Assembly: GCA_031263835.1 (NCBI GenBank)
Contig: JAISEZ010000021.1
Location: forward strand, 1-12,524
Reading direction: 5' to 3'
Source: Tannerella sp.
Lineage (GTDB): Bacteria; Bacteroidota; Bacteroidia; Bacteroidales; Tannerellaceae
DNA: 12,524 nt
Shown here: positions 39-12,524 of the stretch, in pieces
How positions within the stretch are numbered: position 1 is the first letter of the stretch
Layout: every line of letters begins with the position of its first letter
Made by a program: the position numbers and the translations under genes
Notes under the pieces: generated by a model
Database searches by the model: none
Told to the model about the DNA's origin: nothing
Seen by the model: the letters and a program-made list of their open reading frames with translations, nothing else

Positions 39-143
39 TTAATGGTTAACGGTTAACGGTTAACGGTTAATGGTTAGCGTCGGGAACGGGTTTTCTCACT
101 AACCATTAATCATTAACCATTAACCACTAACCACTAATCACTG
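39..143. repeat. Heptamer-repeat array forming a long hairpin over the stop codon of the T9SS protein gene
   Basis: Positions 39-77 are five or more degenerate copies of the heptamer GGTTAAC/GGTTAAT. Positions 99-137 are the inverted counterpart (ATTAACC/ACTAACC units), with a 21-nt spacer at 78-98. By eye 33 of 39 positions are complementary and several of the rest are G:T pairs. The array runs on to 143 and includes the TAG stop of the upstream gene (134-136). On the minus strand the hairpin would follow the stop codon at once, so it may end or protect that transcript, but no T-tract follows it, so it is not a classical intrinsic terminator. A second copy of the 107-143 part lies inverted at 4631-4667. 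Confidence 0.85.
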
Positions 144-3100
144 CTTACAAACACCTTTTTCGTAATCCAGGTGTTTTTGACCTGTACTTTCACGAGATAG
201 ATGCCTGCGTGTGCGACCGGAACGGTGAACCTGTCCGAAGCCGCACTGCCTGAATATACCTGTATGCCCGGCAGACTGTACACCTGTATCTGCCGGATAA
301 TCCCCGCCTGCGAACGTATGTGGATGTGGCCGCCCCGGCCGGAGAACCGCACGTCCGGACGGGAAATACCCTCTTCACCGGTCAGGCCCTCTCCCGTGTA
401 GTCCATCCTGAGTGTGAAGCGGCTGTCCAGCGCTGCCGGCGTCCCTGCCGGCGTGAAGGTGTAAACGGGCGTCTGCTGAAGGTTGATTTGCAGGTTGTCA
501 CATTCCCGGTCTATCAGGTAAACGTCGTGCCCGAAGCGCCCCAGGCCCGAAAATTCCAGGGTCACATCGCCCGCTCCGGCAACGCGCAGTCCCAGGTCGG
601 TCGTGTGGCTGTCGAGTTCCCCGTCCGCATAGATGGCCAGCGGCACGCGGCCGGCGGTCAGGAGATAGACGGCCAGCAGATGTTCGTCGCAGAACAGGCT
701 CCGGATATCTTCGTCGCCGTCGTATTCCGGCGATGCGTCCGGCTCATAGTGCATCACGGCATACGCCGTACTGTTTCCCTGAGAGGCTTTGATGCGCAGC
801 ACGCCGCTCTCCGCTGCGGCTGCGGCTGCGGCCGTGCGGAGGGGATAGCCGCCCTCTGCGCCGTCCGTGACATCGGTCGTTGTCCAGCGGGGCGACATGA
901 CGACGCTGGAAAGCATGTCCGCATCCGTCTTTTTCGGGATGAAGAAGGACTGCAGCGGCGGTATCAGCGCCGCATCGGAAGCGACCAGGTAGGGCGACGT
1001 GCTCACAACCGTGCCGGCGGTACCCGCAAACTTGACGGCAACGAAGCTGCTGTTCGGGTCGCCGTTCCAGACCAGGTAGCCGCCCGCAGCCAGCGAGTCT
1101 CTGTTGTTACGGAGAAAGGAATCCATCCGCAGACAGGCCAGGTAGGGATTCACCACCTGTACGAGGTGGCTGGCGCCGGACTCTCCTCCGAAGACCGGCA
1201 TGTCGAACCGTCCGGAGGCATCCTGCGCGACGCCGTCCGTGATAAACCGCCGGCTGTCGGTGCGACGCAGACGCCCGGCTTCGGATTTCGTCGCAGCATC
1301 CGTATAGAAGACATCCGGCTGCGGGAACTGCCACGTCCGGTCGCGCGACATGGACGTGCTTGTCACCTGCAGGTTGAAGGCCCTGCCCAGTTCCAGCGGC
1401 CTTTCCGGCGAAGTGACCGTGACGTCGACGAAGCTGGTCCGCACGGGTGCGGTGGAAGCGTCCGGCCGGAAGTAACTCATGTGCACGTCGCCCCAGAGCG
1501 GCTGTCCGGCGGCATTCTTGAAATGGTAGTCGCCCGAATACATGTCTGCAAGCGGCGCCGACCACATCACGGTGCGGTCGCGTTCCAGCGCCTTGAGCTT
1601 CAGTTCCACCTCTGCAGCGGTGTAGGTCAGGGCGTGCGGGTTTTTCAGCATGGCGCGGTCCTGCATGGCGAGGGTATCGCAGAAGGCCGGCGCGTCCAGT
1701 TCCGGATAGTGCGGAGCGCCGGACGTAATCACCGCGTTCGCGTGCTCCAGCGGCCACCACGAAACGGGTATTTCATACGTCCTGCCGCTGGCCGTCAGTA
1801 CCTCCACCCAGTTATCCGGATTGTACCAGTCCGTATCCTCCAGTCCCGTCCAGCGCATGGTGGAAAAGCCGACAGCGGTGAAGTCCGCGGAGATGGGGTT
1901 TGTTCCGCATTCGTCCGTCACCTCCATCGTGACGGTATGCCTGCCGGAAGCCAGCGTCCGGCTCCATTCCTTCATGTTTCCCGCAGCCGTTTCCTCCGCG
2001 CCGTCCACGTACCACTTCAGCGTGGCCGGAACGGCGGTTTGCAGGTCGGCTCTGAAGTGCACGGACGCTCCGATGCTCATCGTTGTATCCTGTACCTTCA
2101 GGTGATGGATGCCGTTCACATAGAAGTCCCGCGTCCCGGAGGGCATGAGACGGAGGGTTATCTCCCGCCTGTCGCCCGGCCCGTTTTCGCCGTAATTGTC
2201 GCCCGACACGGTCACGTAATAGGCGGCGGGCGCCGTCAGCAGCGGCGTGGTGAAGGTTCCGCCGGTGTGGAGCGTGTCGGTGGCCGTCTGTGATGCGTAC
2301 CAGCGGAAGACGGGGCTGGAAACGCCCGGCGCCGTGGCCGTCAGGGAGGTCGCCGTGCCGTGACAGATGTCCGTCGTCCTCCCGGAAACGGAAATCATGG
2401 CCGCCACAGCCCGCGCAAGGACTTTTACGGGGCCGGTTGTGGCGGAACAGTTGCCGGCAGAGGTGAACGTGAACGTCGCCTCGCCCGGCGAAACGCCCGT
2501 TACCGTACCGTCGGAGCTGACCGTGGCAACGGCGGCGTTACTGCTCTTCCATGTTCCGCCGCCTGCGGGCGACAGGGTGGTCGTTTCGCCCGGAGCAATC
2601 ACGGCAGGCCCCGTGATGGCGGCGGCAGGCGATTCCACGTTGATGTCGGTATCGACGGTTTGCGGGTTGCCGGTTATGTCCACGGCGGTCATGCGGATGT
2701 TGTGGCGTCCATCCGGAAGCGTCCTGTTCCAGGTCTGCCGGTTTCGCGCAGCCGTCTCCTCCACGCCGTCGATGTACCATTTCAAGTCCAGCGGACTTTG
2801 GGCGTATTCCACCCTGGCGGAGAATTTGATGTTGCCACTGCAGACGGTGTTATCCGGTATCTGCTGGAAATGAATGTCATTCACCGAAAACATCACGTTC
2901 AAATCATAGAGCGACGAACCGGCCAGATAATAATAGGATTCACTTGGCCCCAAACCGCAAACCAGCACCGTCAGGCCATCCGGATTGCTGAAGGTGTAGG
3001 GAACTGCAGCGGTTGGAGACAGGTCATATTTGAGGGAAGAATATCCGGCACGCTGCTGCCAGTCGCCGGACGGGGCTGTATTGTTCACTCTGGTTTGTCC

Positions 3101-4345
3101 CCTTGTGGCCGTGGAAGTCACAATGAGGGCATAATGTTCCGTTATCTGTGCGCTACTGCCGGGAATAAACGGGGCGACGGTAGTGGAGATTACACGCTGC
3201 TCAACCGGCGGAATCCATACGACTGCGGGACCTCCAAATCTCGTTAGATAGGATGGCGAGTATGACAGCAGATATGCACATACGCCCACCGGCTTGTTTG
3301 ACGTAATATAACATCCCGTGGTCGAAATTCCCCCTGGCCCCAGCCCGGTGCGCCCTGCTACGGCTACGAACTCTCCCTTCTTTAAGGCAGTGCTGGCAGG
3401 CTCTCCTCCCGATACATTCACCGTTGTTCCATCCATGGACGCCACGACCCGTATCTGCAGGGGACGAAGCTCCTTTCTGCCGACATCCGGCACAAAAAAC
3501 TTTGTTCCCCACGAATTTACCGGCGCCATTTGCTGATAGAGGTTATCCAGATTTCCTCCCCTGTCATCGGGAATGTAAGCGCCTCTGTGGGTGACAAAAT
3601 GCGCTACCGGCTTGTCGGACGTCACATGAACTCCTGTCATGTCTGTTTTTGTTGAAGGCAGATAATATACCCAGCCTCTATGCATCGGGATGGGCCGGCC
3701 GTCGATGTAGAGCTGCGTATTGTTTTCCGTCGCAACAATCGTCATGGCATCCCGGCTCTCCTCCTTACCGTCTGCGCCGGAAGGAAAGGAAATATGATAG
3801 TAGTCGGTTCCCAGGGCGTTTGTGGGAAGCACATTCGTTGCGTCGGTAACGGCGGACGTACTGTTAAGGGCATATACCGATACGGGTTGAGTGGAGGATA
3901 TGTGCAGCGAATTTACGGTTGTCAAAGCGTTTGCACTTCCCGAATAGACAAGCTCTTTGTCTTTGCCTTTGAAACTTTTCGAAAAAACCGTATTTGCGTC
4001 AATGTCGACTTCTTCAACCTTACCCGATTTTCTATATGTCAGGGTAACGGTTGTCGCGTTCGTCGTTACGATTCTCAGTTGCAAATCAACCCCGCCGGCA
4101 GCAAATTCTCTGTTTTGTCCGAATGCCAGCCAGAAATCCGTTCCCGCCGTTGTCTGTGCAGACAGGCTGACCGTTGCCAGCAGAAGGCCCAGGGCAAGAA
4201 GGGCCGCCGAAAGGAGGGAAAGCCGTTTCGGGACGGATTTGTTTTGGATACTTCCGGCGCGGCCGGTTCGTGATAAATCAGTCAAATACACCCGACTGTT
4301 CAGGGTTTTGCGGCAGGAAGCCGTCCGGTTATTTTTTTTATTCAT
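134..4345 (-). CDS. Large T9SS-secreted surface protein with IgGFc-binding-type N-terminal region and Ig-like domains
   Basis: A 1403-residue exported protein. Residues 1-41 form an unusually long, basic lead before the hydrophobic signal core (about 42-60), with likely cleavage after LSAQ near residue 64. No in-frame start codon lies nearer the core, so the ATG at 4345 is used. Residues about 66-480, opening with TDFWLAFGQN, match what I know of the IgGFc-binding N-terminal family (PF17517). Residues 500-570 and 748-825 are two related Ig-like modules sharing LKWY-DG-EETAA. Residues 575-642 resemble a bacterial Ig-like group 2 domain (VATVSSDGTVTGV), and 650-735 another Ig-like fold. Residue 831 onward (WTGLEDTDWYNPDNW) begins a segment common in Bacteroidetes surface proteins. 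Residues about 1330-1403 are a type A T9SS sorting domain (IQVYSLPG, then AGIYLVKVQV, KKVFV). Seven alanines at 1172-1178 come from a GCCGCA microsatellite. The protein is probably cell-surface attached; the domain name does not prove IgG binding. The 3' half looks more GC-rich than the 5' end. Confidence 0.9.
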   Translation of the reverse strand: MNKKNNRTASCRKTLNSRVYLTDLSRTGRAGSIQNKSVPKRLSLLSAALLALGLLLATVSLSAQTTAGTDFWLAFGQNREFAAGGVDLQLRIVTTNATTVTLTYRKSGKVEEVDIDANTVFSKSFKGKDKELVYSGSANALTTVNSLHISSTQPVSVYALNSTSAVTDATNVLPTNALGTDYYHISFPSGADGKEESRDAMTIVATENNTQLYIDGRPIPMHRGWVYYLPSTKTDMTGVHVTSDKPVAHFVTHRGAYIPDDRGGNLDNLYQQMAPVNSWGTKFFVPDVGRKELRPLQIRVVASMDGTTVNVSGGEPASTALKKGEFVAVAGRTGLGPGGISTTGCYITSNKPVGVCAYLLSYSPSYLTRFGGPAVVWIPPVEQRVISTTVAPFIPGSSAQITEHYALIVTSTATRGQTRVNNTAPSGDWQQRAGYSSLKYDLSPTAAVPYTFSNPDGLTVLVCGLGPSESYYYLAGSSLYDLNVMFSVNDIHFQQIPDNTVCSGNIKFSARVEYAQSPLDLKWYIDGVEETAARNRQTWNRTLPDGRHNIRMTAVDITGNPQTVDTDINVESPAAAITGPAVIAPGETTTLSPAGGGTWKSSNAAVATVSSDGTVTGVSPGEATFTFTSAGNCSATTGPVKVLARAVAAMISVSGRTTDICHGTATSLTATAPGVSSPVFRWYASQTATDTLHTGGTFTTPLLTAPAAYYVTVSGDNYGENGPGDRREITLRLMPSGTRDFYVNGIHHLKVQDTTMSIGASVHFRADLQTAVPATLKWYVDGAEETAAGNMKEWSRTLASGRHTVTMEVTDECGTNPISADFTAVGFSTMRWTGLEDTDWYNPDNWVEVLTASGRTYEIPVSWWPLEHANAVITSGAPHYPELDAPAFCDTLAMQDRAMLKNPHALTYTAAEVELKLKALERDRTVMWSAPLADMYSGDYHFKNAAGQPLWGDVHMSYFRPDASTAPVRTSFVDVTVTSPERPLELGRAFNLQVTSTSMSRDRTWQFPQPDVFYTDAATKSEAGRLRRTDSRRFITDGVAQDASGRFDMPVFGGESGASHLVQVVNPYLACLRMDSFLRNNRDSLAAGGYLVWNGDPNSSFVAVKFAGTAGTVVSTSPYLVASDAALIPPLQSFFIPKKTDADMLSSVVMSPRWTTTDVTDGAEGGYPLRTAAAAAAAESGVLRIKASQGNSTAYAVMHYEPDASPEYDGDEDIRSLFCDEHLLAVYLLTAGRVPLAIYADGELDSHTTDLGLRVAGAGDVTLEFSGLGRFGHDVYLIDRECDNLQINLQQTPVYTFTPAGTPAALDSRFTLRMDYTGEGLTGEEGISRPDVRFSGRGGHIHIRSQAGIIRQIQVYSLPGIQVYSGSAASDRFTVPVAHAGIYLVKVQVKNTWITKKVFVSSD

Positions 4346-5042: not shown

Positions 5043-6653
5043 TTACGGCTTATTATTTCCCAAATTCGGATTGAGCTGTGTCTCAAATTCCGGAAGCGGA
5101 AGGAAATAATCGTCCTTTGTAATAGAGCGCTGGATAGCATATCGAGGATCCGGTTCGTCTCGCCATTCGGTATTGGCTTTTTCGACAAGTTCGAGGCGTT
5201 GCAAATCCCACCAGCGCGAGCAAATCTCGAAGCCGGCAAACTCCCAGGCGCGTTCCCAAATGACCAGGTCTATAAATTCTTCTGTTGACAGGCCGTTCAC
5301 GGAAGCTTCGGTAGTATACAAGCCTTTATAGGCGCGGTTGCGTACGTCGTTGAGGCACTTATAGGCCAGCGCATCCGGTCCATCCGTCCGCGCTTTGGTT
5401 TCGGCATAAATCAGCAGAATTTCCGGGTAACGAATCCATGGCCACGAGCGTCCGTTTTGCCAGTCGCCCCGTGCCTCCATAGCGATGTTCCAGTTACTTG
5501 TCGGCAAGTTACGATTCTCCCATTTCCACTCCCCGACCAGGTCGTCGGCCCACAGTTTGCGGTAGCACGGATGCTGGACAGCCAAATCGGTATAATGGTG
5601 ATGATACACTTCCGCATGACCGGCGTCGGGTCCGTGATAGAAGTCGGTGATAAACATAAACTCCTTGCGGTCGCCTTCGGGGTAACGGTTATAGAAGCCC
5701 AGTTCAGGAAAGATCATACTCCATCCGCCATATTCGGCAGGACGCCACGGACGCGGCGAACGAAGGCTGCGAGCATAGGTGGGGTCATGAAGAGTATACC
5801 ATATATATTCCTCGTTTTCAACCTGCCCCGGTTTCCACATATCCCAGACTTGATAGAAATATTCATGCATACCATAATGGTAAACCGTTTCGGCGCCGTC
5901 AATAATTTCTTTCGCCTTGTCGCGCGCCCTGGCATAGTATTCCGTGCCACCGTTGATGGGATAACCCGCCATTTGCAGATAGACCTCCGCAAGCACGCAT
6001 TTTGCTATGCCCTTATTCGGTTCCGCAGCGTTTTGCCACGGATAGCCGCTGCCTTTCCATGTTACGGGCAGCCACTGCTCGGCAAACTGCAGATCCGAAA
6101 TAATCAGGTCGTAGATTTCGCGGGCAGGCGTGAGCGTCATTTCATGCTTAAAGTCCGCCCGGTACGAATCCAGCACCAGCACCACATTGTTGAAAAACCT
6201 TACCAGATAAAAATAACAATACGCACGCTTGAAATAAGCAATGGCCGCAAGAGCTTTCAGGTCGGCCTCGCTCATGTCTGTTACCTTTTCATACGTATTG
6301 ATAACGTTATTATTCGTATTGATACCTTCGTAGCACCGCTCCCATCCGTGGCGAATATCAATTTGCTGATCGGCATTGATGGCGCCGAAATTCTCCATGG
6401 AAAGGTATTCTGCCGCATCGTAACCCAATGCATCATCGGCTGCGCTCCATTTGATCTGCAAATCGTCGTAACACATGTGCAGCGACGGCAAGCCGGTAGC
6501 GCTGACAAGCATCACCAATTCCGTCTTATTGTTCGGCATTGATTCCGGTGCCAACTTTCCGTACAGGTTCTCTTTCAGAAAATCTTCGTTTGACTGACAG
6601 CTGACTAACCCAAGAAGGGCAGCTGCGATTATGAAAAATATTTTACTATTCAT
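5043..6653 (-). CDS. SusD/RagB-family nutrient-binding outer-membrane lipoprotein
   Basis: A 536-residue protein, a normal length for SusD homologues. The N-terminus is a lipoprotein signal with lipobox LVSC (Cys19); acidic residues shortly after it (QSNEDF) resemble the surface-export signal of Bacteroidetes lipoproteins. Family marks are the helical region around LAAIAYFKRAYCYFYLVRFF, the WPWIRYPEILLIYAETKA block, VIWERAWEFAGFE followed by SRWWDLQR, and the C-terminal YFLPLPEFETQLNPNL. SusD proteins lie over the SusC barrel like a lid and deliver substrate to it at the cell surface. The gene starts 40 bp after the susC stop, so the two are almost certainly co-transcribed. The substrate cannot be inferred from the sequence. 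Confidence 0.96.
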   Translation of the reverse strand: MNSKIFFIIAAALLGLVSCQSNEDFLKENLYGKLAPESMPNNKTELVMLVSATGLPSLHMCYDDLQIKWSAADDALGYDAAEYLSMENFGAINADQQIDIRHGWERCYEGINTNNNVINTYEKVTDMSEADLKALAAIAYFKRAYCYFYLVRFFNNVVLVLDSYRADFKHEMTLTPAREIYDLIISDLQFAEQWLPVTWKGSGYPWQNAAEPNKGIAKCVLAEVYLQMAGYPINGGTEYYARARDKAKEIIDGAETVYHYGMHEYFYQVWDMWKPGQVENEEYIWYTLHDPTYARSLRSPRPWRPAEYGGWSMIFPELGFYNRYPEGDRKEFMFITDFYHGPDAGHAEVYHHHYTDLAVQHPCYRKLWADDLVGEWKWENRNLPTSNWNIAMEARGDWQNGRSWPWIRYPEILLIYAETKARTDGPDALAYKCLNDVRNRAYKGLYTTEASVNGLSTEEFIDLVIWERAWEFAGFEICSRWWDLQRLELVEKANTEWRDEPDPRYAIQRSITKDDYFLPLPEFETQLNPNLGNNKP

Positions 6654-6693: not shown

Positions 6694-9600
6694 TTAATAT
6701 TCGATGCCGATACCGAAAGAAACCGTAAACGGATTCGGATGTGTAAACCAGTCCGCACCGCCACTGGTATCAACGTTGCCGGCGCTTCCGCCGGAATGGC
6801 CTATTGCGCTTACTTCAGGGTCATAACCCTTGTATTTCGTGATGGTCAGCAGGTTTTGGGCGCTGACCGACAGGCGCACTTTCGCAAACGAAATCACGCT
6901 TTTCGGAACGCGGTACGCCAGACTGACGTTGCGCAGTTTGATATAGCTGCCGTCTTCGAGGAACTGGGTCGAAACGAACTGCGCATTGCGGGTTGCCGAA
7001 CCGGCTTTGGCGTAAGGTGCATTCGGATTTTGCGGCGTCCAGGTGTTCGTGGCTTCGTGCAGCGTAACGGTGCTCGGATAGGTTCGTGTAACCATAGAGG
7101 CGCGTGTCCAGTTCATCAGATCGCGTCCATACACGCCTTCAAACAGGACATTGAAATCCAAATTTTTATACGACAAATGGTTATTGAACCCCCCTGTAAG
7201 CGACGGGCTGGAACAGCCGATAATCTGATTGTCGTCCGAGGTATAGGCATAGTCGCCATTGAGGTCTTCAAACTTGTAGTCGCCCGGATTTTGCAGGAAT
7301 TTCCGGGCTTCTTCCGCCTCATTCTCCTGCCATATACCAAGGTATTTGTAACCTACAAAAGTACCAAACTGCTCACCCACCATGATGCGTTGCGCGATAT
7401 AAATACCGTCACCGAACGCGCTTCCATAGAGAAACGCCTGGTCGCCGATGTCGAGCACTTTGCTTCTGTTGTGCGAAGCGTTGAGGTTTATGTCATAGAA
7501 CCAGTCTTTGTTTTCGACAATGGTGTAATTGACATTGAACTCAACACCTTTGTTCTCCAGCGAGCCGACATTAGCCGTAACGCTTCCGGCGCCATTGTAC
7601 AGAGGCACCGTTAACGGCGCCAGCAGGTCGTCCGTTTTCTTGTAATAATAATCGAACGAGAACGACAGACGGCTGTTCAGCGTTGTCAGGTCGATACCGG
7701 CAGACGTCTGTCTGGTCGTTTCCCATTTCAGACTGGCATTACCGCCCGACTGAGGTCTGAATGACGGATATTGAGTGGCAGATGCATAACCGTTGCTTCC
7801 CTGGCTCATAAGGCTGTATGTGGCATACGAGCTGATCGCCTGGCTGCCCGTTACGCCCCAGCCGCCGCGCAGTTTGATATTTTGAAACAGGTCCTGATTT
7901 TTCATGAATCCTTCTTCCGAGAGACGCCATGCCACGGAAAACGACGGGAAATAACCAAACAGGTTGTCGCCCTTGAATTTCGAGGCGCCGTCGGCACGGT
8001 AGTTGGCCGTCAGATAGTAACGTCCGTCATAGTTATAGGCGACACGCCCGAAATAGGAACGTATGGCGCTGTTACTGTAGCTCGAACCGACGCCGATACT
8101 GGGCGCTGCCAGGCCAAGGTTATACCATTTGACTGCCTCGAGAGGCAGGATATTGGCGTTGGCATAGAAGCTCTCGTAAACGGTTTTCGTCTCTTCGATA
8201 CCGGCCATCAGCGAAAAGTCGTGCACGTCGATTTTTTTCGCATAGGTCAGGTAAGCGTTTACCAGCCACGTTTTCGACTCGTAAGACGACTGACTGGCCG
8301 AAGCCTGATTGCCGCTTCTGTTTTTGGAATTGAAGCTGCGGCTTCCGCCCGTACCGAATGCAACTGCACCTTTGGCGTCGAGTGTCAAGCCTTCCATAAA
8401 CCTGATTTTCACATTACCTGTGGCGTTACCGTTATTCGTATAATTCCGGCCTTCTCCGGTCAAACTCAGTCTGGGATTGATTACGCTGCCGGTTCCGTAA
8501 CCCAGTCGGCGATAGCTGCCGTCTTCTTCGAACATCTGTTCGGTGGGCGCCCAGAGCATCGCGGCCATCAGCGGGTTTGCCGTAGTGCCGATGCCTCCCG
8601 CCGTACCGCCGTTTAACTGGTCGATATGGTTGATGTTCGATTCAACCTGTACCGTAATGTAATTGCTCAAGTCCATATCCACTTTCGCGTTAAGGCCGTA
8701 GCCGCCGTAACTGGTATTCCAGATTATACCGTCGGCCTTGTTCCAGTTGGGCGAAACATAGTAGCGTACGTTTTTCGCACCGCCTGTCACTACAGCCTTG
8801 TGATTCTGCACAAATCCCGTACGGAAGACTTCGTTCATCCAGTCGATACCGCCGTTTGCTTTGAAACCGGCCAGCTCGGTTTCGGTAAACGTTGTATTGC
8901 CGATACTGTTGTTATACTCGGCAAATTCGTATGCGTCCATCAGGTTGTAGCGTTTCGGCAGCTGCTGGAAGGATGCGTCGGTGTACCATTTCAGTGTCGG
9001 CTTGCCGTCTTTACCGCGATTGGTAGTAACAAGCACTACGCCGTTGGCGCCGCGCGAACCGTATATGGCGGTTGCCGAAGCGTCCTTCAGTACCTCGATA
9101 TTTGCGATATCGTACATGTCGGGGATTTGATCAGCGTAATTGCCGTCTACCACAATCAGCGGTGCGTTGTCGCCCAGAATGGAATTGGCGCCGCGCACGC
9201 GGATAGTAACGCCTCCGCCCGGCTGACCATGCGTTTTTGCAACCGTTACGCCCGCTGCACGGGCAGACAGTACCGATGCGACAGCGCTCGCAGGCTGATC
9301 CAGAAAGTCGCGCGAAGTAACGGACGAGACGGAACCTGTCAGGTCGCTTTTCTTTACTGTGCCATACCCGATGACCACCACTTCTTCCAGCATTTCGCTG
9401 TCTTCGGACAGCGTCACATTAAACTGCAACCGGTTACCGACTGTAATCTCCTGTGCTGTATATCCGATAAAGGATATTTGCAGCACGGCATTGTTACCGG
9501 CTACGCCCAGCGTGAACTTCCCGTCAATGTCGGTCACCGTTCCGTTGGTCGTGCCTTTCTCCATGATATTCGCCCCGATAATGGGTTCGCCTGCTGCATC

Positions 9601-10032
9601 CGTCACGACGCCCGTAATCCGTTTGCCGGCCGGCTGCTGCATTGCACCTGTTTCGGGAGAAACCGCTTTCCTTGTAATAATGACGTTAACGCCTTCCATT
9701 GCGTAGGCGAGGTCCGAATTTTCAAACAGCCGGTCGAGCACTTCGCGCACCGGCTTGTTTTTCACATGTACGGAGACTTTGCGTTCCAGACTGATATCCG
9801 TGTTCGAAATAAAAAGATAATCCGTCTGCTGCTCAATCTCATCCAGTACATCCCTGAGTGATGCCTGCTGTTTGTTCAGGCTTACCCTTGCGTTTTGCGA
9901 GCTAAGATTTTCCGCAAAAACGAATCCGGAAAACAATAGCCAGAAACAAATCGTCAGTTTCATAATTCTGTTAAAGTGGAGATGGCGGGCGAAATTTGGC
10001 CCTGCAATCTCCGGTAAAAAGATTTTTTTCAT
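6694..10032 (-). CDS. SusC/RagA-family TonB-linked outer-membrane transporter with STN signalling domain
   Basis: An 1112-residue outer-membrane importer. After the signal peptide come an STN domain (about 45-122, DVLDEIEQQTDYLFISN), a carboxypeptidase-regulatory-like domain (about 138-210, GVVTDAAGEPIIGANI), a TonB-box region with LEEVVVIGYGTVKKSDLTGS (215-234), a plug (about 225-345, with VVDGNYADQIP and IEVLKDASATAIYGSRGANG) and a beta barrel ending in the aromatic IGIEY. The STN domain is the part that signals to FecR-type anti-sigma factors, and the sigma and anti-sigma genes lie directly upstream. Two starts are possible: ATG at 10032, which adds 23 basic or polar residues, or ATG at 9963, which gives a compact signal peptide MKLTICFWLLFSGFVFA. 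Extended starts are common in annotations of this family, so 10032 is kept with reserve. The -7 box of the antisense RNA overlaps the 10032 start codon. Confidence 0.96.
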   Translation of the reverse strand: MKKIFLPEIAGPNFARHLHFNRIMKLTICFWLLFSGFVFAENLSSQNARVSLNKQQASLRDVLDEIEQQTDYLFISNTDISLERKVSVHVKNKPVREVLDRLFENSDLAYAMEGVNVIITRKAVSPETGAMQQPAGKRITGVVTDAAGEPIIGANIMEKGTTNGTVTDIDGKFTLGVAGNNAVLQISFIGYTAQEITVGNRLQFNVTLSEDSEMLEEVVVIGYGTVKKSDLTGSVSSVTSRDFLDQPASAVASVLSARAAGVTVAKTHGQPGGGVTIRVRGANSILGDNAPLIVVDGNYADQIPDMYDIANIEVLKDASATAIYGSRGANGVVLVTTNRGKDGKPTLKWYTDASFQQLPKRYNLMDAYEFAEYNNSIGNTTFTETELAGFKANGGIDWMNEVFRTGFVQNHKAVVTGGAKNVRYYVSPNWNKADGIIWNTSYGGYGLNAKVDMDLSNYITVQVESNINHIDQLNGGTAGGIGTTANPLMAAMLWAPTEQMFEEDGSYRRLGYGTGSVINPRLSLTGEGRNYTNNGNATGNVKIRFMEGLTLDAKGAVAFGTGGSRSFNSKNRSGNQASASQSSYESKTWLVNAYLTYAKKIDVHDFSLMAGIEETKTVYESFYANANILPLEAVKWYNLGLAAPSIGVGSSYSNSAIRSYFGRVAYNYDGRYYLTANYRADGASKFKGDNLFGYFPSFSVAWRLSEEGFMKNQDLFQNIKLRGGWGVTGSQAISSYATYSLMSQGSNGYASATQYPSFRPQSGGNASLKWETTRQTSAGIDLTTLNSRLSFSFDYYYKKTDDLLAPLTVPLYNGAGSVTANVGSLENKGVEFNVNYTIVENKDWFYDINLNASHNRSKVLDIGDQAFLYGSAFGDGIYIAQRIMVGEQFGTFVGYKYLGIWQENEAEEARKFLQNPGDYKFEDLNGDYAYTSDDNQIIGCSSPSLTGGFNNHLSYKNLDFNVLFEGVYGRDLMNWTRASMVTRTYPSTVTLHEATNTWTPQNPNAPYAKAGSATRNAQFVSTQFLEDGSYIKLRNVSLAYRVPKSVISFAKVRLSVSAQNLLTITKYKGYDPEVSAIGHSGGSAGNVDTSGGADWFTHPNPFTVSFGIGIEY

Positions 10033-10039
10033 ATCTTTG
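10032..10039 (+). promoter_or_regulatory. -7 box of an antisense promoter facing away from susC
   Basis: TATCTTTG is a perfect match to the Bacteroidetes -7 consensus TAnnTTTG, and is the same octamer as in the sigma-factor promoter on the other strand. No TTTG is found at the expected -33 spacing (about 10007-10012); the nearest, at 9995-9998, is too far away. It points towards the terminator at 10096-10128, and no protein gene lies between them. Confidence 0.55.
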
Positions 10040-10045
10040 CAATTG

Positions 10046-10128
10046 CTTTGTTATTAATAAAATAAGTATATCTCTTTAAATGTGCTTGTTTGGAACCGGC
10101 AGGCGGGCAAACGCCTGTCGGTTTTTTT
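10046..10128 (+). ncRNA. Candidate cis-antisense small RNA opposite the susC leader
   Basis: The interval runs from the expected start site just after the TATCTTTG box to the end of a U-tract terminator, giving an RNA of about 80 nt. It is complementary to the untranslated leader of the susC mRNA. It lies between an anti-sigma gene and a SusC gene, the same setting as DonS, a cis-encoded antisense RNA that represses a polysaccharide utilisation locus in Bacteroides fragilis. The promoter has no -33 match and the exact start is estimated. No open frame of note is present. An alternative is that the terminator ends longer antisense transcription from within susC. Confidence 0.55.
10096..10128 (+). 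terminator. Intrinsic terminator on the plus strand
   Basis: CCGGCAGGCG (10096-10105) pairs with CGCCTGTCGG (10112-10121) with one G:U pair and a 6-nt loop (GGCAAA), followed by seven T (122-128 of that block). Two A:U pairs can extend the stem. The T-tract exists only on the plus strand; on the minus strand the hairpin is followed by TTCCAAACAAG, so it does not terminate the fecR to susC direction. Confidence 0.85.
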
Positions 10129-10184
10129 CTTCCGTTTTCCTTCAACCGGAGTCTGTTCCTGCTATCATGGCCGAAATCTTTGAG

Positions 10185-11126
10185 TTAATAAATACGGATA
10201 ATATTTGACTCTTCGTCACGCCTGTACGTGAAACGGAAGTCGTTTTGCAGTACCCGGAGGGCATGGTCGACGCCGTCGGCGATGCGGAGTTTGCCGCGGT
10301 AGCTCAGCGTTTTCACCCTGCTGTTCCCGACAATGATTTGCTGGTCGAAATATTTTTCGAACATTCGCATGATTTCTTCAAACGTATGGTCTTCGATTAC
10401 AATCAGCCCTTCACGCCAGCGGGAAGGATTTGTCCTGATGGGCGATACCCGCAGCGAGTCGTCCGTCAGTGCGGCGGCTTCCCCCGGGTTGAGGCAGAGC
10501 GGCGCGGCGTCGTCCGGTTCCCTGTAGAGCCTTACTTTTCCCGTAAACAGAGCCGTTGAGAAATCCGGTCGACCGGCGTATGCATCGACGTTGAAGGTCG
10601 TACCCAGGGCTTCTACATAATATTTCCCGGTTTTCACGACAAACGGCTGTCCGTCGCGCCCTGCAACGTCAAAATAAGCCTCGCCGTTCAGTTCCACCAT
10701 CCGCGTCCCGCCGGCAAACGCGCCCGGATAACGGAGTGTCGAATTGGAATTCAGCCATACGCTGCTGCTGTCCGGCAAGGTGAGGAACGCCCTGTTCCCC
10801 GGCGGAACATAAATGCTTTGCAACGCCGTATTCACCGGTTGAGAAGTGCGCAGATAAAAGTTGAAAAGGTAACTGCTTCCGACCAGCAACAAAATAGCGG
10901 CGGCTGCTTTCAACAGCGTCAGGACGACGCCTTTCGCACGGGCGGGTTGTCGCGACGGCGTTCCGGTTTCGCTCATCACCACGGACGCATCAAAGCGGAT
11001 GCGTTCGCGGATGAACGTTTTCCGGTGTACCCCGTCGCTTTCCAGCCACCTGCGGACAGCCTCCTTTTCTTCTCCGGAACAGCGTCCCAGGAAATAACGG
11101 ACAAGTATATTACGGTCTATTTTCAT
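10185..11126 (-). CDS. FecR-family anti-sigma factor
   Basis: A 313-residue inner-membrane regulator, typical length. Residues 1-60 form the cytoplasmic part that would hold the sigma factor (ILVRYFLGRCSGEEKEAVRRWL is the usual opening). A single membrane segment spans about 66-91 (VVLTLLKAAAAILLLVGSSY). The periplasmic FecR domain covers about 104-200 with VPPGNRAFLTLPDSSSVWLN, MVELNGEAYFDV and ALGTTFNVDAY. The C-terminal domain (about 240-313, FEEIMRMFEKYFDQQIIV) matches the DUF4974 type that receives the signal from the STN domain of SusC. It starts 56 bp after the sigma-factor stop and no promoter is seen between them, so one transcript is likely. An out-of-frame ATG lies 4 bp upstream of the chosen start. 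Confidence 0.95.
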   Translation of the reverse strand: MKIDRNILVRYFLGRCSGEEKEAVRRWLESDGVHRKTFIRERIRFDASVVMSETGTPSRQPARAKGVVLTLLKAAAAILLLVGSSYLFNFYLRTSQPVNTALQSIYVPPGNRAFLTLPDSSSVWLNSNSTLRYPGAFAGGTRMVELNGEAYFDVAGRDGQPFVVKTGKYYVEALGTTFNVDAYAGRPDFSTALFTGKVRLYREPDDAAPLCLNPGEAAALTDDSLRVSPIRTNPSRWREGLIVIEDHTFEEIMRMFEKYFDQQIIVGNSRVKTLSYRGKLRIADGVDHALRVLQNDFRFTYRRDEESNIIRIY

Positions 11127-11182: not shown

Positions 11183-11782
11183 TCAATCGAAAAAAAGCTG
11201 GAAAAAAACGGCAAGCAGAGGCGAGTAGTCTTTCAATTCGGTGTATAAATGCCGGTTAGCTTTATTGATGTGATAGTCGATTTTTTGCAGCGAAACGCCC
11301 AGCTCGACGGCGAGTTCCTTCCGGGGTCTGAACTTGAAGCGGTGCTGTTCGAAGATGTACCGCGTCTGACCGGGGAGTTTGGCCAGCGCCTGTTTCGCGA
11401 TCCGCCTGATTTCATCTGTGAATATGTCGGCATAGTATTCGTCTTCGAGTGTCATGATGCGGGCCTTGACTTCCCATTCGTGCAGTTCGGCATACTGCTT
11501 GCCATATTCGGATTCAACCTGCAAGTGCTTCAGGTGATTCAAACACTTATTCTTTACAATCAGCAAAATATAACCCAGTACATCCGTATCGGGAGGCAGC
11601 TTGCTTCTGTTCTCCCAACAAGACAGAATCGCATCATGCGCAATGTCTTCCGCCGCCTGCACAGCGTTCACATAATAACAGGCATAACGGATAAAACGCC
11701 TGTAATACGCCGTATAAAACGCGCCGAAGTCCGATTCCGAAAGCACTTCGCCGGGGGTCACTATGTTTGCTATTTTTTTCAA
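11183..11782 (-). CDS. ECF RNA polymerase sigma-70 factor
   Basis: A 199-residue sigma factor of the Bacteroidetes ECF group. Region 2 covers about 20-85 (FYTAYYRRFIRYACYY, AAEDIAHDAILSCWENR) and region 4 about 130-185, with a helix-turn-helix at LAVELGVSLQKIDYHINKA. Region 4 is slightly unusual, having FRPRKELAVELG where many relatives have a YKEIAEELG-like stretch. Expected role: released from FecR, it transcribes susC-susD. No in-frame ATG exists near the start. TTG at 11782 is the most upstream start after an in-frame TGA, and GTG at 11761 is an alternative. An ATG upstream (MIPCTVEK...) would read into the gene if the run of seven A at the start were six, so a homopolymer error or a real frameshift is possible. 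Confidence 0.92.
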   Translation of the reverse strand: MKKIANIVTPGEVLSESDFGAFYTAYYRRFIRYACYYVNAVQAAEDIAHDAILSCWENRSKLPPDTDVLGYILLIVKNKCLNHLKHLQVESEYGKQYAELHEWEVKARIMTLEDEYYADIFTDEIRRIAKQALAKLPGQTRYIFEQHRFKFRPRKELAVELGVSLQKIDYHINKANRHLYTELKDYSPLLAVFFQLFFD

Positions 11783-11812: not shown

Positions 11813-11845
11813 CAAAGATAGAAACTTTTTTTAGTACATGACAAA
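11813..11845 (-). promoter_or_regulatory. Bacteroidetes-type promoter of the sigma-factor operon
   Basis: On the minus strand TTTG (11842-11845) is followed after 21 nt by TATCTTTG (11813-11820). Both match the -33 and -7 consensus of the Bacteroidetes housekeeping sigma factor, with permitted spacing. Transcription would start near 11806, about 24 nt before the TTG start of the sigma-factor gene. Confidence 0.75.
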
Positions 11846-12116: not shown

Positions 12117-12524
12117 TTAAACTTTACAGTTCTCCATGTAATTACCGTGTATATCGGGCACACGGATCCGGAGCACCCGGATATGATATGGCCCGATGAC
12201 CGCGACCGCGGCCAGTGTCAGTTCCTGAAGTTCAATCAGCATTCTGCGCTTTGCCGCCCCGAACCCGATGCCGTTTTCCTTCCTGTAAATCATTACCGGC
12301 ATGGCTGTAATGAGCGTCATGTACATCACCTCTATTCCGTTCCGGTTAAGCGATATGAAATGACTGAAACTTAACTCCTGCTTTGGAAATCTGAAAAATA
12401 CTTCGATGTCCCGCCGGCGGCGGTACATATGCGCTACAGTTTCCGCCGGTAAATTAAATATGTCTGTTATCAACAGAATATCCTCTTTTTTGCCTTCCGG
12501 ACGGAAGCGGATTACCCGGTATTT
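12117..12524 (-). CDS. IS4-family transposase, C-terminal part (cut by window edge)
   Basis: The reading frame stays open to the right edge, so only the last 135 residues are visible. They contain the full YREK signature of IS4 transposases: Y34, R37, E41 and K48 in YRRRRDIEVFFRFPKQEL, where E41 is the third acidic residue of the DDE catalytic site. The following FSHFISLNRNGIEVMYMTL and GFGAAKRRMLIELQEL agree with the C-terminus of Bacteroidetes IS4 transposases. Relatives that I recall have VMLYMTL where this one has VMYMTL, and a hydrophobic residue where this one has Pro47, so it may be divergent or decaying. The visible frame has no stop or frameshift. A TTG at 12473 is internal, not the start. 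Confidence 0.85.
   Translation of the reverse strand, partial: KYRVIRFRPEGKKEDILLITDIFNLPAETVAHMYRRRRDIEVFFRFPKQELSFSHFISLNRNGIEVMYMTLITAMPVMIYRKENGIGFGAAKRRMLIELQELTLAAVAVIGPYHIRVLRIRVPDIHGNYMENCKV

Follow-up and report, generated by a model that had tools for sequence, protein, structure and literature searches.

A probable structured antisense RNA gene opposite the leader of a FecR-linked susC gene in a Tannerellaceae-type bacterium

The plus strand of positions 10032-10128 very probably encodes a small folded antisense RNA, to judge from its sequence and from comparison with related loci. The initial annotation of this DNA had placed a plus-strand RNA here, in a DonS-like position. A predicted discrete RNA opposite the susC leader now has strong support from its conservation, from a fold specific to this strand and its covariation, and from a model search of the genome. 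We consider it likely that 10032-10128 (+) is a structured RNA gene of about 85 nt, whose promoter box overlaps the susC start codon, and whose RNA would lower susCD expression in cis by pairing with the leader. In this proposal, the use of the promoter, the ends of the RNA, the start of the sense transcript, and the repression together with its mechanism are what we infer.

The locus and the predicted RNA

The window, i.e., the whole stretch of 12,524 nt analysed here, forms contig C237 in a draft genome of 2.05 Mb that is 63% complete. The host genus is a Tannerellaceae-type lineage known from metagenomes and, to judge from isolate labels, perhaps one from the insect gut; the early guess that the system lay outside Bacteroides is supported. 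Pfam matches give the gene order sigma - FecR - STN-SusC - SusD, all on the minus strand, and the features of the locus are as follows.

10032..10039, plus strand: TATCTTTG, putative -7 box of a housekeeping-sigma promoter (sequence; comparison)
10044..10059, plus strand: predicted 5' end of the RNA at about 10044 (±3 nt, placed from the box) and unpaired 5' segment (box; fold)
10060..10091, plus strand: predicted stem-loop 1 of 12 bp, 10060-10071 pairing with 10080-10091, loop 10072-10079 (fold; covariation)
10092..10125, plus strand: predicted stem-loop 2, the terminator hairpin, 14 pairs, loop 10106-10111 (scan; fold; covariation)
10122..10128, plus strand: T7 tract, predicted 3' end of the RNA (sequence; scan)
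10166..10172, minus strand: GGCCATG block, candidate part of the susC sense initiation region (comparison, from which the promoter role is surmised)
6694..10032, minus strand: susC, TonB-dependent with an STN domain, the presumed target gene (PF13715, PF00593, PF07715, PF07660)
10030-10032, minus strand: susC start codon, CAT on the plus strand (sequence)
10185..11126, minus strand: FecR-type anti-sigma gene (PF04773, PF16344)
11183..11782, minus strand: ECF sigma factor gene (PF04542, PF08281)
5043..6653, minus strand: susD, presumed to be co-transcribed with susC (PF07980, PF14322)

The gap between the anti-sigma gene and susC measures 152 nt; it holds the terminator hairpin on the plus strand and has the box at its susC edge. 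Both elements named at the outset, a TAnnTTTG box (TATCTTTG, 10032-10039) and a plus-strand terminator (hairpin with T7 tract, 10092-10128), are present. The box had been assigned to the gap, which is right in part: it is not wholly in the leader but overlaps the susC start codon, its first base, T, also being the one that ends CAT, to which that codon is complementary. Similarly, the terminator hairpin with which the unit had been described is there, but a second hairpin at 10060-10091 had been overlooked. The predicted RNA of about 85 nt (10044-10128) folds into two hairpins after 16 unpaired nucleotides, with -34.5 kcal/mol and a z score of -6.28 (0/200 shuffles equally good); the z scores are -3.97 for 10044-10091 and -6.36 for 10092-10128. 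The minus-strand complement retains the terminator stem and lacks hairpin 1 (z -4.31 overall).

Taken alone, the box is at chance level in the window, where TANNTTTG occurs 5 times vs 5.86 expected, and the comparative evidence is decisive. CATANNTTTG occurs twice vs 0.36 expected, a count reached by 11/200 shuffles. No other terminator in the window scores as high as this one (44.5, runner-up 32.0), and a score of 44 or more was seen in 0/24 strand-shuffles (12 shuffles in 1-kb blocks on both strands). Under the looser rules of a consensus scan, terminator-like sites showed no overall excess in the window (17 vs 16.0 expected). No -33 element was recognisable 20-40 nt upstream of the box, where 101 aligned cases gave a maximum of about 0.3 bits per position. 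The only plus-strand open reading frame of at least 60 aa that reaches into 10032-10128 is the end of the frame 9872-10057. A search with Rfam 15 gave no match above the gathering score in the window and only rRNA and tRNA matches in 15 related loci; at 9980-10190 there were five weak sub-threshold matches (E 0.12-0.87).

Elsewhere in the window, a second TATCTTTG lies at 11813-11820 on the minus strand, about 30 nt upstream of the start of the ECF sigma gene, and is likely the housekeeping promoter of the sigma/anti-sigma operon. On the susC strand, no such box is found in the intergenic gap, and TACGTTTG lies inside the FecR gene (10379-10386). Downstream of susCD, 134-4345 (-) encodes a protein of 1403 residues that has IgGFc_binding and Ig-like domains and what we take to be a C-terminal sorting tail. 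Upstream of the sigma gene, a DDE transposase fragment (12117-12524, minus strand) runs to the contig end.

Box and terminator among SusC genes

The comparison covered 222 usable SusC genes, 178 with a same-strand FecR gene before them and 44 without, in a sample that was partly hand-picked from a longer list (40 short and 20 long reading frames). A box was counted if CATA(nn)TTTG or CATTA(nn)TTTG coincided exactly with an in-frame ATG among the first 80 codons, and a terminator if it exceeded a fixed score at most 160 nt upstream of susC. By these rules, the box lies on the start codon of 126/178 FecR-linked susC genes (55/72 in named records and 71/106 in the remaining genomes) vs 0/44 of those without FecR; the other 52/178 have no exact box. 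An antisense terminator precedes 111/178 FecR-linked genes vs 0/44, and a sense-strand terminator 2/178; box and antisense terminator occur together in 97 of the 126 boxed genes. The initial annotation had suggested looking among related SusC loci for a conserved promoter and terminator with covarying stem pairs; box and terminator recur in the FecR-linked genes, and stem pairs covary in the chosen alignments described below. For the genomes other than the named records, Fisher tests of FecR-linked against other SusC genes gave p values of 4e-16 for the box and 1e-12 for the terminator, which are only nominal because the sequences share ancestry.

Among 243 gene-like open reading frames from twenty 20-kb stretches, used as control genes, the box was found once, an antisense terminator six times, a sense terminator five times, and the box with the antisense terminator never. 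The box is thus rare in control genes and absent from SusC genes without FecR, and therefore goes with FecR linkage, which this control does not separate from the STN domain because most of the 44 genes also lack STN. A start-codon artefact, with CAAAnnTATG as a translation-start consensus, is ruled out by the same counts (1/243 other genes and 0/44 SusC genes without FecR).

FecR homologues were found in 53/61 genomes. Named records with boxed genes include Bacteroides, Parabacteroides, Phocaeicola, Proteiniphilum, Massilibacteroides, Dysgonomonas, and Labilibaculum, as well as Sunxiuqinia, Pedobacter, Sphingobacterium, Mucilaginibacter, Pararcticibacter, and Pseudoflavitalea. The SusC proteins themselves differ at the N-terminus, where the signal-peptide core is preceded by a median of 25 residues in the 126 boxed FecR-linked proteins vs 13 in 43 without FecR, and in the window the extra N-terminal codons of susC (9960-10032) coincide with the expected upstream part of the small RNA promoter.

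The orthologues and the named loci were first inspected by eye. Decay is seen in three of the four closest orthologues: in L009 (80% FecR identity), one base of the box is changed and the stem is weak; in L010, the box also differs by one base; and L018 (G007:C126) has lost the RNA body, with the FecR match in two pieces and the box alone left beside the susC start. Homologous loci that had not kept the hairpin were to count against the RNA, and such loci were indeed found in part (L018 and L009, with L010 for the box), but the wider family keeps the hairpin; both hairpins are kept in L011 to L017. In L013 (2493-2616), the 3' arm of stem-loop 1 and the terminator hairpin are tandemly duplicated.

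Strand-specific fold, covariation, and model searches

For 89 loci with box and terminator that remained after redundancy filtering, a fixed rule gave predicted RNAs of 70-124 nt (median 82). The antisense strand folds better than its complement in 88/89 loci, with one tie (mean -30.4 vs -18.5 kcal/mol). Because G.U pairs favour a U/G-rich strand, the inner segment from the putative start to the terminator was tested on each strand against dinucleotide shuffles of that same strand. The mean z score of this segment was -2.93 for the antisense strand vs -0.29 for the sense strand, and z was -2 or lower in 69/89 antisense vs 3/89 sense segments. The arms of the first hairpin recur as GTTAATAC/GTGTTAAC, GTGAATAC/GTGTTTGC, and GTTGATAC/GTGTCGAC, and as AATAAGTA/TACTTGTT in the subfamily of the window. 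By eye, the terminator loop recurs as GTTGCAGC or TGTTGACGCA-like sequence from Tannerellaceae-type genomes to Pedobacter (e.g., L051, L059, and L090), and these loops are more alike than a plain terminator needs.

On alignment A2, which comprises 33 sequences including relatives of the window, RNAalifold predicted the terminator hairpin alone, because the subfamilies have stem-loop 1 in different registers. For stem-loop 1, two separate hand-chosen alignments were then used, both choices leaning towards rows with visible structure: A3 holds 28 loci, chosen from the 89, that have the GTTAATAC-type arm and align well, and A4 holds 9 of 12 window-type loci (L009, L013, and L039 were dropped). 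In A3, the two helices comprise 21 pairs, with 95.4% pairing, and 14/21 pairs have changes on both sides; the cells with both-side changes number 74 vs 21.3 ± 4.9 in shuffled alignments and at most 17 when the pairing is slid. In A4, 22 pairs are also 95.4% paired, and 8/22 have both-side changes (one in helix 1 and seven in helix 2). One U.G pair of helix 1 is unchanged in 28/28 A3 rows and 9/9 A4 rows; in a wider, script-scored set of 65 loci the same pair is U.G in 47 and U-A in 18.

A covariance model, R1, was built from the 28 A3 sequences, among which the subfamily of the window is not represented. In the draft genome of the window, where 150 of 558 first-look candidates were scored, R1 gave a single match at E≤0.1, and this match is C237:10053-10127 (+), with 49.1 bits and E 6e-6. 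The model misses L004 and L005, the two other junctions of the same genome with a box on the start codon, and its sensitivity is therefore limited. At E≤0.01, R1 has matches in 33/61 genomes, seven of which supplied model rows and so match by construction. A FecR gene is present in 28/30 R1-matched loci examined, or in 21/23 once the seven loci that supplied model rows are set aside; the two exceptions are L277, with SusC only, and L285, with neither FecR nor SusC. On 100 chosen loci, model rows included, R1 found 81 matches in 79 loci at E≤0.01.

The genome of B. fragilis Q1F2, from which no row of the model came, has four R1 matches at E≤1, all four adjoining FecR genes on the opposite strand, and the box lies on the start codon in 12/21 of its readable FecR junctions. 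In a sample of the phylum, with 15 candidates scored per genome, R1 matched in at least 6/296 genomes, the genome of the window included. Three of the five other matches are FecR-SusC junctions with the box, L324 lies at another gene, and L326 at neither. At L324 (G118:C1:1538045-1538119), a box on the ATG and a terminator face the beginning of a gene other than FecR or SusC, one that may have an isocitrate-lyase-type N-terminus.

Proposed mode of action and relation to known antisense RNAs

Numbered on the susC sense strand, the predicted RNA extends from about -12 to -96. In B. thetaiotaomicron PUL24, the susC mRNA (BT1875) begins 291 nt upstream, at a 5' end within the anti-sigma gene (PMC11501099); if the sense 5' end at the present locus likewise lies upstream, the whole RNA is complementary to the leader. 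A candidate for the ECF promoter of susC is GCCTATG, to which GGCCATG at 10166-10172 corresponds in the window; it occurs exactly in 78/126 boxed FecR-linked susC genes vs 4/44 without FecR, at a median of 27 nt beyond the terminator stem (60 loci with both measurable). This sequence was seen between the FecR stop codon and the terminator, often after TTAACC-like sequence (L014, L021, L051, and many others).

In the mechanism that we propose, the housekeeping sigma factor would transcribe the RNA from the promoter whose -7 box lies on the susC start codon, and the intrinsic terminator would end it before the presumed susC sense promoter region, confining the RNA to the leader and sparing the sense promoter and the anti-sigma gene. 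The RNA may then pair with the leader beside the ribosome entry site, leading to a block of translation and/or to cleavage of the duplex, and head-on transcription might add to the repression. susCD would be switched on only once the ECF sigma factor released by FecR makes leader RNA in excess, so that leader pairing could set a threshold for the ECF switch. As to its reach, predicted pairing in one genome had a median of -14.2 kcal/mol with other FecR-linked susC leaders vs -12.9 kcal/mol with control leaders, the cognate value being -68; the comparison (110 non-cognate vs 120 control pairs) has p 0.009 on non-independent pairs from that one genome. Action in trans on other susC leaders thus left only a weak signal in predicted pairing, and cis action is favoured because pairing with other leaders is barely better than with control leaders.

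Repression by leader pairing is not the only way in which such an RNA gene could act. Bare base-pairing in cis needs no conserved fold, which counts against the leader-pairing reading, and because fold and box position are conserved beyond the needs of pairing, a protein partner may be involved, or interference between the two transcription units. The RNA gene could then be real and act mainly through its own transcription, with the housekeeping RNA polymerase seated on the susC start codon and colliding head-on with the ECF polymerase or occluding it, or through a protein-binding two-hairpin fold, with pairing secondary. The box locked to the start codon, the covarying fold, and the U.G pair kept in 28/28 and 9/9 rows, none of which pure antisense action needs, speak for this, as does the mechanism of DonS, called unknown in PMC11697453; yet with a sense start upstream, the RNA must be complementary to the leader throughout, and we regard this possibility as unlikely, though the most serious of the competing ones.

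It is improbable that the blocks of stem-loop 1 are themselves the susC ECF promoter (sense AACAC ... GTATT), from which divergent RNAs with scant overlap would arise and compete at the promoter level. An AAC with a spacer of 16-18 nt resembles the -35/-10 arrangement of ECF promoters, and such a spacer is found on the sense strand in 14/26 strict cases. However, the spacers range from 4 to 26 nt, the arms change together (AATA/TGTT, GATA/TGTC, AGTA/TGCT), and the reported 5' end of BT1875 lies inside the anti-sigma gene (PMC11501099).

We attach very little probability to a hairpin that serves as a sense-leader attenuator or stability element, with T tract and box incidental: the terminator stem does fold on the minus strand as well (z -4.31 for the whole), but the T tract, the box, and the inner hairpin are antisense-specific features, the sense inner segment falls short of z -2 in 86/89 loci, and strand-specific folding led us to reject a sense attenuator. 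Equally remote is a terminator that merely shields the anti-sigma and sigma genes from stray antisense transcription, with a functionless RNA, which would suit a stem ending a median of 27 nt before GCCTATG and the remark in PMC7366714 that not every antisense RNA candidate need be functional, but would leave the conserved inner hairpin and the start-codon-locked box without purpose.

The leader-pairing proposal has its closest parallel in DonS, reportedly described in Bacteroides fragilis by Cao et al. in 2016. DonS-like antisense RNAs are 78-128 nt long, lie opposite susC, and have a negative effect, and a canonical σABfr promoter belongs to 52% of the cis-antisense RNA candidates of B. thetaiotaomicron (Ryan et al. 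2020, PMC7366714); such RNAs are reported for 15 PULs of B. fragilis (PMC9723704), and the annotation of B. thetaiotaomicron contains 32 of them (Ryan et al. 2024, PMC10994844). With these, the window shares an RNA on the strand opposite a susC homologue, at its 5' end, a predicted length of 85 nt inside the published range, and a perfect TAnnTTTG of the σABfr type, with no -33 element seen; a B. fragilis genome has the same anatomy at FecR junctions. In contrast, the host is of Tannerellaceae type, another bacterial family, and the covarying two-hairpin fold and the box fused to the start codon are absent from the excerpts compared. On position, size, and promoter type, we regard the 10032-10128 (+) RNA as probably a cis-antisense RNA of the DonS kind outside Bacteroides. 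The PUL-associated antisense RNAs of B. thetaiotaomicron correlate both negatively and positively with their susC (PMC10994844), and this mixed correlation speaks against a simple repression reading.

The small RNAs FopS and GibS of B. thetaiotaomicron offer a different comparison. FopS represses susC translation near the start codon, forms a family of 14 paralogues, and acts on many susC mRNAs through a 5' seed (PMC11697453). The window RNA is small as well, but is encoded opposite its presumed target and is only weakly predicted to pair with other susC leaders. The order sigma - FecR - STN-SusC - SusD is that of FecI-FecR-TonB receptor signalling. We know of no antisense RNA at the receptor gene of the classical FecI-FecR-TonB system.

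Double control of one SusCD system by sigma/anti-sigma and antisense RNA, as the initial annotation had it, would follow only if the repression is real, and PULs with DonS-like RNAs have already been described in Bacteroides. What may be new is that the fold covaries, that the promoter sits on the start codon itself, that the RNA goes with FecR, and that it is spread across Bacteroidota. More tentatively, and with rather less confidence than we place in repression by leader pairing, the junction might be one instance of an ancient, Bacteroidota-wide RNA family of fixed anatomy (box on the start codon, first hairpin with a mostly kept U.G pair, GTTGCAGC-like terminator loop). Its conserved fold would then make it more than a copy complementary to the leader, namely a dedicated module of FecR-type cell-surface signalling that works with a protein partner or gates the ECF switch kinetically.

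In the accounts compared, PUL-associated antisense RNAs have so far come from the transcriptomes of two Bacteroides species, with their mechanism unexplained and a mixed correlation with their targets. The sequence anatomy described here, i.e., the start-codon-locked box, the two covarying hairpins, and the link to FecR, would allow such RNAs to be predicted in other Bacteroidota genomes, and may turn a list of transcripts into one testable family. It also raises the question of why a fold and a wobble pair are kept if complementarity alone counts.
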